Origin: a virus
Length of the DNA stretch: 38,422 bases
Reading direction: 5' to 3' (one strand)
IMG/VR virus record: IMGVR_UViG_3300037010_000653
Span: 1-38,422 of that record
Positions 3,332 to 19,892 of this stretch are shown here, one piece after another. Position 1 is the first letter of the stretch, and each line of letters opens with the position of its first letter. The position numbers and the translations under genes were made by a program. Below the pieces are notes generated by a model, which saw only the letters and a program-made list of their open reading frames with translations, had not been told where the DNA came from and did not search any database.

Positions 3332-3778
3332 TCAATTCGGCCATTGCAATACCGGAAGCTCAGATTCAAGTTCTTCCCACGTCGGAACGGGGAGCTGATT
3401 AGATTGCACTGCATTCAGGATTTCATAGCACTTAGCCCATGTCGCGTCTCTCGCTTGCACGCAGTATTGCCCTTCAGCAGCGAACTTCGAAACCGTACTC
3501 GTCACATAGGTACATGCAGATAGGATTCCATCATATCCACGGGCGCGGGCGAAAGTGTCGAGGCGGCTTTGAACCTTAGCAACAAATTCCGCTTCGATCT
3601 GCTCCGGCGTCTTGCGCGGCGGCGGCGGATTGACAAACGTCGTCCCGTCCCACGTCGCGCCAAGTTGCACCCATTCAGGCGCTTCGACAAGCATATACAG
3701 GTCGCCGTAGCAGTCCAGCGACGGAACTTCCCATAGGTCGGCAACGACGCCGCTCTCGATTCGCGCTGCTCTCATCAT
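3332..3778 (-). CDS. Putative tail fibre assembly/chaperone-type protein
   Basis: The protein of 148 residues starts at ATG 3778, overlapping the stop of the upstream fibre gene. After a beta-rich N-terminus (to about 55) comes a helical region with RLDTFARARGYDGILSACTY and later ARDATWAKCYEILNAV, ending in LPVLQWPN. This arrangement (ARxRGYD, a central aromatic DATW, C-terminal LPxLxWP) is typical of short proteins encoded just after phage fibre genes and thought to help fibre assembly or to form the fibre end. Position directly downstream of a fibre gene agrees. Confidence 0.7.
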   Translation of the reverse strand: MMRAARIESGVVADLWEVPSLDCYGDLYMLVEAPEWVQLGATWDGTTFVNPPPPRKTPEQIEAEFVAKVQSRLDTFARARGYDGILSACTYVTSTVSKFAAEGQYCVQARDATWAKCYEILNAVQSNQLPVPTWEELESELPVLQWPN

Positions 3779-4812
3779 TCAAACTCCCAGATTTCAATGT
3801 AGCCCGCGCCACCTGCGCCGCCGCTGTAGGTGCTGACGCCACCGCCGCCGCCGCCACCGCCGCCGCCGAATACGCCGCTGCCACCTACGGCAGCGTTGCC
3901 TCCGGGGCCGCTGCCGCCGAATACGGGGCCGCCGCCACCGCCGCCGCCGTTGTTGGGGCTGCTACTGTTGCCCAATACGCCATAGCCTCCGCGCACATTG
4001 ATGCTCCCCCCGGTTGTCGTCCCGCCGCTGCCGCCCGTGCCGTTGGCGTTCCCGTAAGCGCCACCGCCAGCGGATATACCCGCGATGGTCGTAGCTCCGC
4101 CATTCGCGCCGTTTGCGCCCGCTGCACCGCCCGCGCCGCCGGCGCCAACTGCGTACGCATAAGACGATGCGGGGGAGGGGATCCACAACTCACCATACCC
4201 ACCGCCGCCCCCGCCTCCGCCGCCAATGCTGGTGCCGCCCCCGCCGCCCCCGCCGCCCCCGCCAATCGCCCGGATCAACAGTCGGTTGATATTGGCCGGC
4301 TTGTTGTAGGTGCCACTCCCCGAAGTGAGGCGCGTGATGTTATACAGCCGACCAGCTGCGGTACTTAATACATTCGCCGGAGCGTAAAGACTATTCGCTT
4401 GACCAAGGTTGACCGCTTGATTGCTCGCTGATGCGTTCGCCACTGCGAAGGTCTGCGCGGCGTTGCCCGCAACAGGGGCATAAAGGCCGTTCGCTTGGCC
4501 GAGGTTGACCGCTTGATTGCTCGCTGATGCGTTTGCCACTGCGAAGGTCTGCGCGGCGTTGCCCGCAACAGGGGCATAAAGGCCGTTCGCTTGGCCGAGG
4601 TTGACCGCTTGGCTGCTCGCTGTTGCGTTAGCCACTGCGAACTGGTTGCTTGCAGAGCCGTTCAACGCGGCAAACTGTTGCTGCGCCTGAGCAAGCGACA
4701 CCGCATTCGCATTGACATTCTGCACGATCTGCGTGAAATTCGCCTGAATCGGCGTCGCATCAACCGGATTGCCGTTTGCGATCGTGTAGGTCAATGGATT
4801 GATGATAGCCAT
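3775..4812 (-). CDS. Tail fibre protein with 32-residue repeats and glycine-rich C-terminal domain
   Basis: The protein of 345 residues has an N-terminal segment (1-60) of the NPLTYTIANGNPVDATPIQANF type seen in phage fibre proteins. It is followed by nearly identical 32-residue repeats (containing NQAVNLGQANGLYAPVAGN) encoded by 96-bp units. From about residue 165 a domain starts with TRLTSGSGTYNKPANI and continues with extremely glycine-rich tracts, ending GYIEIWEFE. That C-terminal module matches the glycine-rich distal domain of minor tail proteins and fibre adhesins. The gene shares TAATG with the upstream hub gene. A role in host attachment is inferred. Confidence 0.85.
   Translation of the reverse strand: MAIINPLTYTIANGNPVDATPIQANFTQIVQNVNANAVSLAQAQQQFAALNGSASNQFAVANATASSQAVNLGQANGLYAPVAGNAAQTFAVANASASNQAVNLGQANGLYAPVAGNAAQTFAVANASASNQAVNLGQANSLYAPANVLSTAAGRLYNITRLTSGSGTYNKPANINRLLIRAIGGGGGGGGGGTSIGGGGGGGGGYGELWIPSPASSYAYAVGAGGAGGAAGANGANGGATTIAGISAGGGAYGNANGTGGSGGTTTGGSINVRGGYGVLGNSSSPNNGGGGGGGPVFGGSGPGGNAAVGGSGVFGGGGGGGGGGVSTYSGGAGGAGYIEIWEFE
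4400..4660. repeat. 96-bp tandem repeat in the fibre gene
   Basis: The 96-bp unit is present in three copies; the landmark GACCGCTTG begins at 4411, 4507 and 4603. The middle and left units are nearly identical, and the right one has diverged (GGCTGC in place of GATTGC). Each unit encodes a 32-residue block, so recombination between copies would shorten or lengthen the fibre in frame. Confidence 0.9.
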
Positions 4813-16644: not shown

Positions 16645-17062
16645 ACCAACAGCCGTTTTACTAACCAAGAAAAGGCAAAATCTGCTAAGTCATTGATTCG
16701 ATTAGCAAAATCGGCGGCTATCCAGCTAGACAAGGTTTTCGGATAGCAGCGCAAAGCATTATCTATATTATATCGCTCAAGATCGGCGCGGCAGCGCAGC
16801 AAGCAGCGCAGCAAGCAGCGCATGGATAATGGCCTTTAGCTATCAATTCGTAAGTGCTTGATTTACTTAGCCTTTTCAGAAAATTAATAGCTAGACATAT
16901 ATATATTGTAACAAGAGATACAATTATCTATCTTATATCTACATGGTATAGTGAATATAGATAATGCATCTCGCCTTTATCCTAAAACCATGTCCTAGTG
17001 CTCAAATCGCGAATTTACGTGCAAGATCAATCACTTACAGCATTCTACCCTGCGCTATAATC
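16645..17062. other. Intergenic region with short repeats and an extended -10 promoter
   Basis: There is no convincing gene here. An AGCGCAGCAAGC unit is repeated about two and a half times (16786-16820). Downstream the DNA becomes very A+T-rich (16870-16960), including ATTGTA...TACAAT inverted arms (from about 16906) and the extended -10 TGGTATAGT (16944-16952). A second TATAAT (17056-17061) sits directly before the next gene's ATG. Confidence 0.6.
16944..16952 (+). promoter_or_regulatory. Extended -10 promoter element
   Basis: TGGTATAGT has the same form as TGCTATAGT at 15214. No good -35 lies 17 bases upstream, which fits an extended -10 promoter. Transcription would start near 16959 in the A+T-rich segment ahead of the gene at 17063. 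Confidence 0.5.
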
Positions 17063-17842
17063 ATGAACCCCGACCGAACCGAAGCCCTATTAGCAGCCGC
17101 GCGCCGCCGCAATGCCGCGCGACACGCTCGCGAGCGCGCAAAAACCATCGTGCGCAAAGATCGTCGCCCCGATATGCTAGCCGCTGGCCGCGCGCATCGC
17201 GCTTTGCTCAAGCTCTATACCCGCGCTGAGACTGAGTACCGCGCGTGCATGCTGCACCCTGCCATTTCGTCTATCTCCGCCGCATACGACTTAAGCGCCG
17301 AACTGCGCCATACCGTTGATTCCGTGCGCGAGCTTGCGTATAAGTGCGTAGGCTCGCCCGCCGCCGATGCGATGCGCCTACGGCTGCGCGAGGATGCGTC
17401 TATGTCTATGCGCCTGGTGCGCCGAATCGCCGCGCTGCGCACTAGCATACTGCGACGCGCGCCCCCGCCCGCCCAGGCAGCCCCTATGCTCGCCCCGATC
17501 ACGCCGCCACCAGCGCCGCCCGACCATGCCCCGCTGCACCACGCGCCCGACTCAACCGCGCCCAACCTGCGATCCGAATACTACTGGGAAAAAATCATAC
17601 GCCGCGCTGACGGCTCACTCAAAGAATGGCAGGCGCAGCGCAAAGCCGCCCGCGCCCGCTATACCCAGTCTGAGAAAGGCAAGACCGTCCTTGCCGCCGC
17701 CCACACCCGCTATGCCCAGTCTGAGAAGGGCAAAGCCGCCCGCGCCCGCTATGCCCAGTCTGAGAAAGGCAAAACCGCCCGCAAGCGTGCACAGGCTGCA
17801 TACCGCGCTCGCAAGCGCGCGCCGCGCCAGGAAAGCCATTAA
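17063..17842 (+). CDS. Basic Ala/Arg-rich protein with SEKGK repeats
   Basis: The start at 17063 (MNPDRTEALL, 259 residues) is preferred over an upstream ATG at 16964 whose extension looks non-coding; no ribosome site is clear for either. Residues 1-140 are strongly basic helices with arginine-rich runs. A Pro/Ala linker (about 145-175) follows. From about 185 to the end there are three copies of the block RYAQSEKGK, separated by Ala/Arg residues, at 17657, 17708 and 17747. Such Lys/Arg-rich repeats could bind DNA or RNA. The family is unknown to me; its isolated promoter suggests independent control. Confidence 0.65.
   Translation: MNPDRTEALLAAARRRNAARHARERAKTIVRKDRRPDMLAAGRAHRALLKLYTRAETEYRACMLHPAISSISAAYDLSAELRHTVDSVRELAYKCVGSPAADAMRLRLREDASMSMRLVRRIAALRTSILRRAPPPAQAAPMLAPITPPPAPPDHAPLHHAPDSTAPNLRSEYYWEKIIRRADGSLKEWQAQRKAARARYTQSEKGKTVLAAAHTRYAQSEKGKAARARYAQSEKGKTARKRAQAAYRARKRAPRQESH
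17657..17790 (+). repeat. Tandem repeats coding for SEKGK blocks
   Basis: CGCTATnCCCAGTCTGAGAA occurs at 17657, 17708 and 17747 (spacing 51 and 39 bases). Both spacings are multiples of three, and the second and third copies are almost identical. Unequal exchange would change the number of basic SEKGK blocks in the protein. Confidence 0.85.
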
Positions 17843-17883
17843 CTGAGCTAATGAGAATCCTTGACCCCATAGAAAAAATCAAT

Positions 17884-17912
17884 TTGTAATTCACGCCTTT
17901 TTCTCATATAGT
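17884..17912 (+). promoter_or_regulatory. Sigma-70-type promoter upstream of the Cys-triplet gene
   Basis: TTGTAA (17884-17889) and TATAGT (17907-17912) are separated by exactly 17 bases. Expected initiation is near 17919, the first base of the CGTAGCA-TG-TGCTACG palindrome. This gives the Cys-triplet gene and its followers a separate promoter from the early operon. Confidence 0.65.
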
Positions 17913-17918
17913 TCATTC

Positions 17919-17934
17919 CGTAGCATGTGCTACG
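17919..17934. promoter_or_regulatory. Palindrome at transcription start (operator candidate)
   Basis: CGTAGCA and TGCTACG form a perfect 7-bp inverted repeat around TG. The position at the probable +1 base parallels the leftward promoter's start-site palindrome. A repressor or activator site, or a transcript 5' hairpin, would fit. Confidence 0.55.
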
Positions 17935-17954: not shown

Positions 17955-18257
17955 ATGTATTACGTGTCTAACACGTCCCCTAAGGGGAACCGCTCAATGA
18001 GTATCAGGAGCCAGGCTGAAGCCGATGCGCGCTGCAAAGCGCTTGATGAGGCTGGCTGCATCGGCTGCGTGGATTGTATCGACTGCACCGGCTGCACCGG
18101 CTGCACCGGCTGCGTGGATTGTATCGACTGCACCGGCTGCACCGGCTGCATTTCCTGCGCAGGCTGCGTGGACTGCTTCCATTGCCTTAACTGCGCAGAG
18201 TGCATGAATCTCGCCGGTCGCGGCCATGTTCGCGGTGCGCCGGGGTATATTGTCTAG
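17955..18257 (+). CDS. Cys-triplet repeat protein (100 aa, 17 xxC units in a row)
   Basis: ATG 17955 follows AAGGAGAGAGT. Residues 1-33 are ordinary. From Gly34 to Cys84 every third residue is cysteine, in units such as [20 protein letters not shown] and AEC: seventeen consecutive xxC units. A short tail ends GAPGYIV. The DNA holds a 45-bp repeat (GGCTGCGTGGATTG at 18063 and 18108). Possible roles are binding many metal ions or a rigid disulphide or three-residue-period rod; neither is proven. It is upstream of the clamp-like gene and is probably co-transcribed. Confidence 0.8.
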
Positions 18258-18271
18258 GAGAGAGGACCATC

Positions 18272-18823
18272 ATGGAAAACACCATCAATATCGAAGTTCT
18301 TCGCGCCCTGCTTCCTTTGGCGGCTAAAAACGATGTTCGTTTTTACCTTAACGGTGTCTACGTCGATTTTCAGGCGGACAAGACTGTTTACGTGGCAACG
18401 AACGGCCATGTCCTCGGCAAGTATGTCGAAGAAGTAGGGAATGGGCATACGTTCTCTATCATCATCCCGTATGACGTGGTGAAACAGCTTAAAGTCGGGC
18501 GCGGGACGGCGAAATATGGCGACCTCATTTTTAACCCGGATATGAACGCGGCCCGCATCGTCAACCCCGCTGCTAGCCAGGACTTAGGTTTCACCTCGAT
18601 CGATGGCAAGTACCCGGACTACACCAAAGTAATCCCGGAAGAGCCAAGTGGCGAAGTGGCTCAATTTGACATCGAGCTACTGTACCTTTTCGCCCAGGTC
18701 AACAAGGCGTTCGGCTCGAAAATCCCTGGCCGCGTCAAGATCGACCATAACGGCGAGCGGGGTGCGCTAGTGCATTTGTCGCGCAGTGAATTTACCGGCG
18801 TTATCATGCCCGTCCGTCTCTAA
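18272..18823 (+). CDS. Half-length beta sliding-clamp-like protein
   Basis: The 183-residue product has beta-clamp phrases in the right order: RFYLNGVYVDFQADKTVYVATNGHVLGKYVEE, IIIPYDVVKQLK, SIDGKYPDYTKVIPEE, and a C-terminal EFTGVIMPVRL. The last matches the MPxRL end of bacterial DnaN. Bacterial DnaN has about 366 residues in three domains; this protein holds about one and a half. A ring of several copies, or competition with the host clamp, is possible. TAGGAGAGAG lies 14-23 bases before the ATG. Clamp identity is from motif reading. Confidence 0.75.
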   Translation: MENTINIEVLRALLPLAAKNDVRFYLNGVYVDFQADKTVYVATNGHVLGKYVEEVGNGHTFSIIIPYDVVKQLKVGRGTAKYGDLIFNPDMNAARIVNPAASQDLGFTSIDGKYPDYTKVIPEEPSGEVAQFDIELLYLFAQVNKAFGSKIPGRVKIDHNGERGALVHLSRSEFTGVIMPVRL

Positions 18824-19003: not shown

Positions 19004-19242
19004 TCCCCCGCACTGTCAATCTCGTTGCCGACTTGCTGATGCGCTCCCCCGAGCCACTCAGCATCCGGCAAATTGCAACCGGAATCCGCCGCCCCGTGCG
19101 CAGCGTATCCAACGTGATCTTGCGCCTACGCCGTGCTGGCCTGGTCGAAGATGCCGAAGTGATTAAGCCACTTGGAACCCGGCGCGTGACGCTATATCGG
19201 TGGGGCGGTGAGGACGCTTGCGGAGGCTGGAGTAAGTTATGA
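19000..19242 (+). CDS. Winged-helix DNA-binding protein (80 aa)
   Basis: The chosen ATG (19000) overlaps the preceding stop and has GGAG nine bases upstream; an in-frame ATG at 18985 lies inside the preceding gene. Residues 1-70 fit a winged helix: VNLVADLLMRSPEPLSIRQIATGIRRPVRSVSNVI (helices, with the recognition helix at about 29-42), then LRRAGLVEDAEVIKPLGTRRVTLYRW as wing. It probably regulates transcription of early genes. The function is inferred from the fold pattern. Confidence 0.7.
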   Translation: MIPRTVNLVADLLMRSPEPLSIRQIATGIRRPVRSVSNVILRLRRAGLVEDAEVIKPLGTRRVTLYRWGGEDACGGWSKL

Positions 19243-19892
19243 ATATCAAAACCTTGGTGGGAGCTGTTCGTGCTCTACTTTCTGGCATGACCAAAAAGAA
19301 GATGCAAACAACAAACACGGACGACTACTCTATTGCTACGAACACATGCTACCGCTCGACGGCTACAAACACAGGCGCCTACTCGGCGGCCACAAATACG
19401 GGCGATAGATCGACGGCCACAAACACTGGCTACTGCTCATCAGCCACGAACACAGGCAATTACTCGGCGGCCACAAATACGGGCGATAGATCGACGGCCA
19501 CAAACACTGGCTACTGCTCATCAGCCACGAACACAGGCAATTACTCGGCGGCCACAAATACGGGCGATAGATCGACGGCCACAAACACTGGCTACTGCTC
19601 ATCAGCCACGAACACAGGCAATTACTCGGCGGCCACTAACACTGGCGACTACTCGGCGGCCGAGGTGAACGGTTCCGAATCCGTTGCCGCCTCGCTTGGC
19701 GTAGAAGGGCGCGCCCGTGCTTCCGCTGGCGGCGCTATCGTCCTTTGCTACTACGACGATGAAACCTGCGAACTGCTTCATATCCGCGCCAGCAAGGTAT
19801 GGGAGAACGGTATCAGGCCAGGTGTTTGGTATTCACTGGACGCCGACGGAGAGTTTATTGAAGTGAAATCTGACGATAGCAAGGAGTGTTAA
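19239..19892 (+). CDS. ATNTG nonapeptide-repeat protein
   Basis: The start overlaps the upstream stop (ATGA). After a short N-terminus come about fifteen 9-residue repeats of the form ATNTG(D/Y/N/A)xSx (residues about 30-145). A conserved C-terminal domain follows with SVAASLGVEGRARASAGGAIVLCYYDDETCE and GIRPGVWYSLDADGEFIEV. This repeat-plus-domain pairing is known in phage and prophage proteins without assigned function; the repeats may form a beta-helix. DNA repeats are exact over 81-bp units, so the length may vary between strains. Confidence 0.85.
   Translation: MNIKTLVGAVRALLSGMTKKKMQTTNTDDYSIATNTCYRSTATNTGAYSAATNTGDRSTATNTGYCSSATNTGNYSAATNTGDRSTATNTGYCSSATNTGNYSAATNTGDRSTATNTGYCSSATNTGNYSAATNTGDYSAAEVNGSESVAASLGVEGRARASAGGAIVLCYYDDETCELLHIRASKVWENGIRPGVWYSLDADGEFIEVKSDDSKEC
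19380..19622 (+). repeat. Three identical 81-bp tandem repeats
   Basis: Units begin TACTCGGCGG at 19380, 19461 and 19542, and a fourth partial, diverged unit begins at 19623. Each unit codes for three nonapeptides. The three copies look identical base for base, which points to recent expansion or to frequent correction by recombination. Confidence 0.95.

Follow-up and report, generated by a model that had tools for sequence, protein, structure and literature searches.

This study describes a family of phage and prophage proteins whose arrays carry cysteine at every third residue; its members keep the three-residue phase, their cysteine codons bear the mark of selection, their array is exchanged with known solenoids ahead of shared domains, and the upstream region of one branch is conserved. 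The pattern, which came to light in a single gene of the window analysed here (a virus record of 38,422 bases), proves to be real, widespread and under selection. We propose, with a probability of roughly one half, that the proteins are small modular solenoid rods with a cysteine core, in which the thiols are kept for their chemistry.

The gene, its upstream region and its downstream neighbour are listed in Table 1. In the encoded protein, cysteines fall at residues 35, 38 and so on to 83 as consecutive xxC units, with an extra one (Cys27) in the head, and the chain ends 17 residues beyond the array without a large tail domain. The first-pass annotation had described an xxC periodicity over 17 units, or 51 residues, and a 45-bp DNA repeat. 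The periodicity is borne out by residues 33-83 of the open reading frame (ORF), and the DNA repeat is present; rather than being the unit of the array, it is a local duplication, and lag analysis, which showed no clear peak after duplications were removed, gave no clear coil period. The protein matches the PHROG profile phrog_15341 (E 1.3e-11) over residues 2-85, that is, over head and array, as do all 7 of the 7 scanned relatives of other types (for example L031 at 7.2e-26, L116 at 2.7e-21 and L051 at only 9.8e-4), with matches in none of 14 control genomes. The sequence cluster behind this profile combines several kinds of head with the array, and it comes without a name, function or structure.

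Table 1. The xxC gene, the elements ahead of it and the gene that follows, in window coordinates
Feature	Position	Strand	Evidence or remark
Conserved promoter block, CATAGAAAAAATCAATTT	17868..17885	+	Single occurrence in window
Promoter-like TTGTAA-17-TATAGT	17884..17912	+	TATA(G/A)T part conserved in 11/11 aligned loci
Palindrome GTAGCA-TG-TGCTAC (6+6), probable 5' hairpin or operator	17920..17933	+	Once in window
xxC protein, 100 aa	17955..18257	+	ORF, ATG start, AGGAGAG ribosome-binding site; phrog_15341 match
Conserved head, residues 1-32	17955..18050	+	Alignment; predicted short strands and helix 20-32; AlphaFold2 pLDDT ~82
Array of 17 xxC triplets, residues 33-83	18051..18203	+	Translation; comparison with relatives
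45-bp tandem repeat within array	18054..18151	+	Tandem Repeats Finder: 2.2 copies, 96% matches
Sliding-clamp-like gene, next in operon	18272..18823 (ATG at 18272)	+	PF02767 (DnaN middle domain) 1.9e-6; phrog_947 4.8e-13

Homologues in phages, which the first-pass annotation had proposed to look for, were found both close to the window phage and in a wider family. A search of viral contigs yielded 7 relatives and an alignment search 25 viral loci including those 7, all with a conserved head that continues in frame into an array of 12 to 36 xxC units; the head consensus from the alignment of relatives is M[RY]YxSxxSPxGNRSxSxxSQxEADARCxALDEAGC. About a dozen of the 25 loci belong to close kin of the window phage, with a terminase about 96% identical (12 loci) and a polymerase mostly 83-88% identical (13 loci). 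In these kin the xxC protein has diverged further, to about 54-67% identity, and its array spans 17, 18, 21, 25, 26 or 33 units. Tandem duplication of xxC genes was also observed, with two in a row in L002, L006 and L131 and several copies on the contigs of L008 and L047.

Codons were compared among five relatives of equal length, which gave 210 codon pairs per triplet position. Cysteine codons showed 63 silent and 4 amino-acid differences, a result independent of whether individual triplets are homologous; the first triplet position showed 38 silent and 108 amino-acid differences and the second 30 and 78, changes that may be overstated since equal length does not prove triplet homology. The head codons of the same relatives gave 84 silent and 56 amino-acid differences, of 320. 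A set of 96 arrays from three head families was limited to ORFs that showed one of three head patterns and had 5 or more units in the array. Cysteine closes 2505 of their 2524 triplets, a constancy that is partly built in because no more than two consecutive missing cysteines were allowed. The 19 triplets without cysteine comprise 11 of 642 behind type A heads, 7 of 1630 behind type C and 1 of 252 behind type B, and 17 of these losses are isolated. A wider set of 161 arrays was reduced to 87 by dropping duplicates and any array that had fewer than 6 different triplets, and to 74 by removing 13 judged by eye to be other frames of low complexity. Across these 74, the amino-acid entropies at the three triplet positions are 3.43, 3.04 and 0.13 bits, the second residue is mostly Asp, Gly, Asn, Ser, Arg or Tyr, and both TGC and TGT are used in 54.

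The family extends well beyond the close kin. A DNA pattern for 12 units picked out at least 120 stretches, many of them other frames of low-complexity DNA, and several sets among the listed stretches have distinct heads and tails. A search with the type C head returned 32 loci, in 30 of which the head runs into an in-frame array of at least 6 units; of the other two, L203 has a short, frame-broken array and L214 ends at the contig end. A type A query found no locus among 84,980 species genomes; a type C query of species genomes found 23, of which 13 have a recognisable head or tail, with Kaistia, Phyllobacterium, Bosea, Dyadobacter and Rhizorhapis among their genera. The Kaistia and Phyllobacterium copies look like prophage genes because their surroundings are those of a phage: of the 10 neighbouring ORFs scanned, 7 had PHROG matches at E 1e-5. 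Two cultured phages carry xxC genes, Vibrio phage 1.238.A (gp68, YP_010093418.1) and Flavobacterium phage FL-1. The former, named 'insect antifreeze protein' by its annotators, is an xxC protein that differs from that of the window in its type G head and in having more Lys and Glu in the array. In FL-1 (L130:2382-3101) the frame is broken after the array and before the tail, and other broken genes are seen in L203, L204 (array into another frame) and L143 (in-frame stop); such arrays thus also decay. A tblastn search of the window protein against phages, with the low-complexity filter on, gave no match at E 1. We found no description of xxC arrays in the literature searched, which takes in only a minority of subscription papers and bioRxiv preprints, and within it they seem undescribed.

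The best evidence that the array is a solenoid-type rod, an argument from architecture and not from structure, is the exchange of tails with known solenoids. Similar xxC arrays stand behind several heads and ahead of several tail domains in phages and prophages. One tail, THCRAGW (phrog_31265), is found behind xxC arrays; a Bordetella plasmid protein has it behind pentapeptide repeats instead (PF00805, E 4.5e-57). When the tail alignment served as query and 80 of 417 relatives were kept, 76 had xxC arrays, 1 had pentapeptide repeats and 3 were cut by contig ends; with the Bordetella tail as query and 80 of 169 kept, 54 had pentapeptide repeats, 17 xxC arrays, 5 were cut and 4 were of other kinds. 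These two sets partly overlap, and the solenoid types were assigned by simple regular expressions. A second tail, IGSR...CGCF (phrog_20532/7964), present on the xxC proteins of L069, L116 and L050, matches 10 phage records, and Pfam scans of eight of the proteins bearing it assigned 2 to pentapeptide repeats (L149, L151), 5 to YdcK or hexapeptide solenoids (L150, L152, L155-L157) and 1 to neither. Because two tails are thus common to xxC arrays and to pentapeptide or YdcK/hexapeptide beta-solenoids, the array is most likely a solenoid rod, although the shared tails could also reflect plain domain shuffling without a shared fold. The xxC relatives resemble the pentapeptide-repeat (PF00805) and YdcK/hexapeptide phage proteins in their C-terminal tails and in the layout of rod before tail, but differ from them in repeat length and sequence; neither PF00805 nor PF18836 matched any scanned xxC protein, that of the window included. 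The layout of solenoid and then shared tail is a property of those relatives that have tails, the window protein being without one.

Structure prediction is consistent with such a rod at low confidence. An AlphaFold2 model of the window protein, built on 12 sequences, gave a pLDDT of about 82 for the head and about 52 for the array, and a fold search with this model returned nothing useful and no match of the 1ezg type. For the relative L136 (33 units), modelled on 22 sequences, the array reached about 54 (about 52-56 at best over the models), and in this model one residue in every three is a bridge residue over much of the array. With this model, Foldseek found no PDB match with E below 0.9; the top probability (0.12) was that of the Tenebrio antifreeze protein, and many other rows, going by their names, are presumably beta-helix enzymes and tailspikes. 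The top match in BFVD was a protein of Campylobacter phage IBB35 (E 1.5e-4, TM 0.39), whose name did not occur among the features of one contig and part of a second from that phage. VIA-align, applied to the same low-confidence model, ranked 1ezg first (Z 5.7, rmsd 3.1 A over 66 residues), ahead of an NMR entry of the Tenebrio antifreeze protein (Z 4.0) and the next unrelated entry (3.5), with the guidance of the program itself being that a Z below 8 may reflect merely a common arrangement. The entry 1ezg also came up, weakly and with a strong composition bias, when solved structures were searched by sequence, and the resemblance of the model to 1ezg could stem from cysteine-rich composition.

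In insect antifreeze proteins, the residues that point inward lie three apart. In one account, each 12-residue coil, TCTxSxNCxxAx, makes one turn of a right-handed beta-helix, with disulphides that link C2 to C8 (PMC8038014). The Tenebrio and Dorcus antifreeze proteins (1ezg; PF02420) thus offer a cysteine-cored beta-helix and the best structural match of the L136 model, but they have cysteine at every sixth residue where the xxC protein has it at every third, and the xxC protein is presumably intracellular and is without their regular TxT ice face. No record of 18 reached the curated cut-off of PF02420, and weak matches arose in 3 of the 18, none of them the window record. The cysteine-rich repeats of Rusticalin were also considered and set aside; one study likens them to beta-defensins and places them almost only in eukaryotes (PMC7379824). 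The first-pass annotation had envisaged a rod with all sulphurs on one face. A position on one face or inside fits the tail exchange and the low-confidence model, and this part of the idea is retained in conditional form, while the array pLDDT of about 52-56 and the lack of a coil length count against anything more definite.

Near-fixed cysteine suggests, as far as sequences can tell, that thiol chemistry is what is kept, with metal more likely than fixed disulphides. Reactive or metal-bound thiols are favoured because mere packing would allow more exchange of cysteine for Ala, Ser or Val. Array lengths are not biased towards even numbers (29 even and 30 odd for type C, 10 and 16 for type A) or clearly quantised: a test for steps of four gave p 0.33 for type C (n=59) and p 0.07 for type A (n=26), and a modulo 3 test of type A lengths gave p 0.024 as one of 12 tests. 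As the losses of cysteine are also isolated, fixed disulphide partners seem not to be required, which argues mildly against fixed pairs.

Several other explanations have to be weighed. The pattern might come from slippage and nothing else: DNA repeats of 9 or 45 bp that by chance stay open in this frame, with no selected protein behind them. The array is indeed a DNA tandem repeat with open antisense frames, many unrelated low-complexity frames fit the plain DNA pattern as well, and some arrays are frame-broken (L203, L204, L143 by a stop, FL-1 before its tail). Against these points stand the excess of silent change in cysteine codons, the use of both TGC and TGT, the conservation of head, ribosome-binding site and promoter, and a phase that persists in diverged relatives. 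Loss of periodicity in homologues with intact frames, which the first-pass annotation had named as the sign of functionless slippage, was not seen. The pattern goes beyond chance because relatives keep it as the DNA and the other two residues of the triplet change; these comparisons indicate that it is kept by selection and is not mere repeat slippage, a rival that is already largely refuted and that we regard as barely credible. A precursor of a ribosomally synthesised, modified peptide (RiPP), with the head as leader and the array as a core modified to thiazoles or thioethers, would explain the leader-core layout and the variable core, and there are weak matches to the heterocycloanthracin (TIGR03601, 0.025) and His-Xaa-Ser (NF038313) models, all below cut-off (15.2 bits against 35, and 20.2 and 17.1 against 55 in two relatives). 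This origin is very improbable given that many members have a conserved domain after the array and that neither a radical SAM nor a YcaO domain was found in any of 27 viral records, several of which are fragments.

A flexible, metallothionein-like chain that takes up metal ions or oxidants without any solenoid fold deserves more attention, even if we think it rather unlikely. Near-absolute cysteine, low model confidence, arbitrary lengths and isolated losses would all suit such a sink, as would the CxxC spacing, which is typical of zinc and iron-sulphur sites. Strict three-residue phase is not something a floppy chain would need, however, nor would such a chain be expected to swap with pentapeptide and hexapeptide solenoids ahead of the same tails, and no Pfam metallothionein model matched the window protein or the relatives tested. 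Some pentapeptide proteins, MfpA and Qnr, mimic DNA, and an acidic rod aimed in the same way at a host DNA enzyme would accord with the acidity of type A arrays (median -0.33 charges per triplet) and with the clamp-like gene next door. We consider this improbable, since type B and C arrays are near neutral (-0.10 and -0.09), type A arrays reach +0.07, and a shared tail does not imply a pentapeptide-like function.

In the window, terminase, portal and major head genes lie on the minus strand, and genes for a family A polymerase, a helicase and an exonuclease on the plus strand. The first-pass annotation had the xxC gene followed by a clamp-like gene, and this reading is confirmed by the Pfam match and by matches to phage processivity-factor PHROGs; in 13 related loci it likewise follows the xxC gene, at 72-78% identity. 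In the window, the xxC gene is immediately preceded by a plus-strand gene (16964-17842) with 39-bp repeats (17696-17783) that encode basic YAQSEKGK-like repeats; it has no Pfam or PHROG match, and its relatives (63-67% identity) occupy the same place in 13 loci. A second repeat protein of the operon (19239-19892, plus strand) has nine-residue TNTGxYSxA-type repeats, DNA repeats of 27 and 81 bp and a match to phrog_4433 (2.8e-61), and it seems particular to the window phage among those compared because it has no match in 26 related loci. Elsewhere, a 96-bp repeat (4394-4641; 2.6 copies at 95%) lies inside a minus-strand ORF (3775-4812) of the structural region, and both contig ends (1-376 and 38172-38422) share a 60/120-bp tandem repeat unit, which would reflect a terminal repeat, a circular genome or an assembly overlap.

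The annotation had also given the xxC gene a promoter of its own, marked by a palindrome. The palindrome is present, and five pairs of the putative hairpin are kept in 11 of 11 sequences, with a single compensatory change, the window having T-A in place of C-G. Support for a separate promoter comes from an upstream block conserved in 11 of 11 aligned loci, ATAGAAAAAATCAATTT being invariant in all 11 aligned upstream regions of xxC genes. Allowing up to 3 mismatches, the block matches once in the window against 0.01 expected; promoter-like matches as such are no commoner in that region than in shuffles (4 against 3.8). The exact block occurs in 13 of 182 loci compared, once per locus, and in these (L005:5843-5860, L021:1973-1990 and 11 others) it lies solely ahead of the xxC gene. 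OxyR or another widespread host regulator was rejected as its reader, the exact 17-mer being found in 0 of 398 genomes of one phylum, and strings from the block had no match in the literature searched.

In the proposed scheme, a short folded head would cap an array whose most likely form is a slender, right-handed beta-solenoid, with cysteine side chains pointing inward and the two variable residues of each triplet outward, the first small or beta-branched and the second Asp, Gly, Asn or Ser. Structurally, the rod would take the part that pentapeptide or hexapeptide solenoids play in other phage proteins bearing those tails, and its thiols probably bind soft metal ions along the core or cross-link under oxidation. 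DNA slippage would change the array by whole triplets with the frame intact, so that related phages carry rods of different length, and the protein is probably expressed alongside the replication genes, from a promoter of its own. More speculatively, and unlikely as a complete picture, the arrays would be an undescribed solenoid class: a cysteine-lined tube, extendable to any length three residues at a time, with metal ions (copper, zinc or iron-sulphur) lined up in order along its axis. Phages would use this tube and pentapeptide rods as interchangeable holders for effector domains, and the window protein would be a stripped-down form.

Cysteine is a costly and reactive residue, and despite this as many as 53 of them are maintained at strict three-residue spacing in many phages and prophages. 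If the array is a cysteine-cored rod, it would be built from a very short solenoid repeat and possibly enclose metal ions in single file, or a thiol ladder, within protein, which would be useful to protein designers. It would also point to phage accessory proteins built from exchangeable rods and end domains, and it offers a common structural hypothesis for a large family of unnamed phage genes (phrog_15341).
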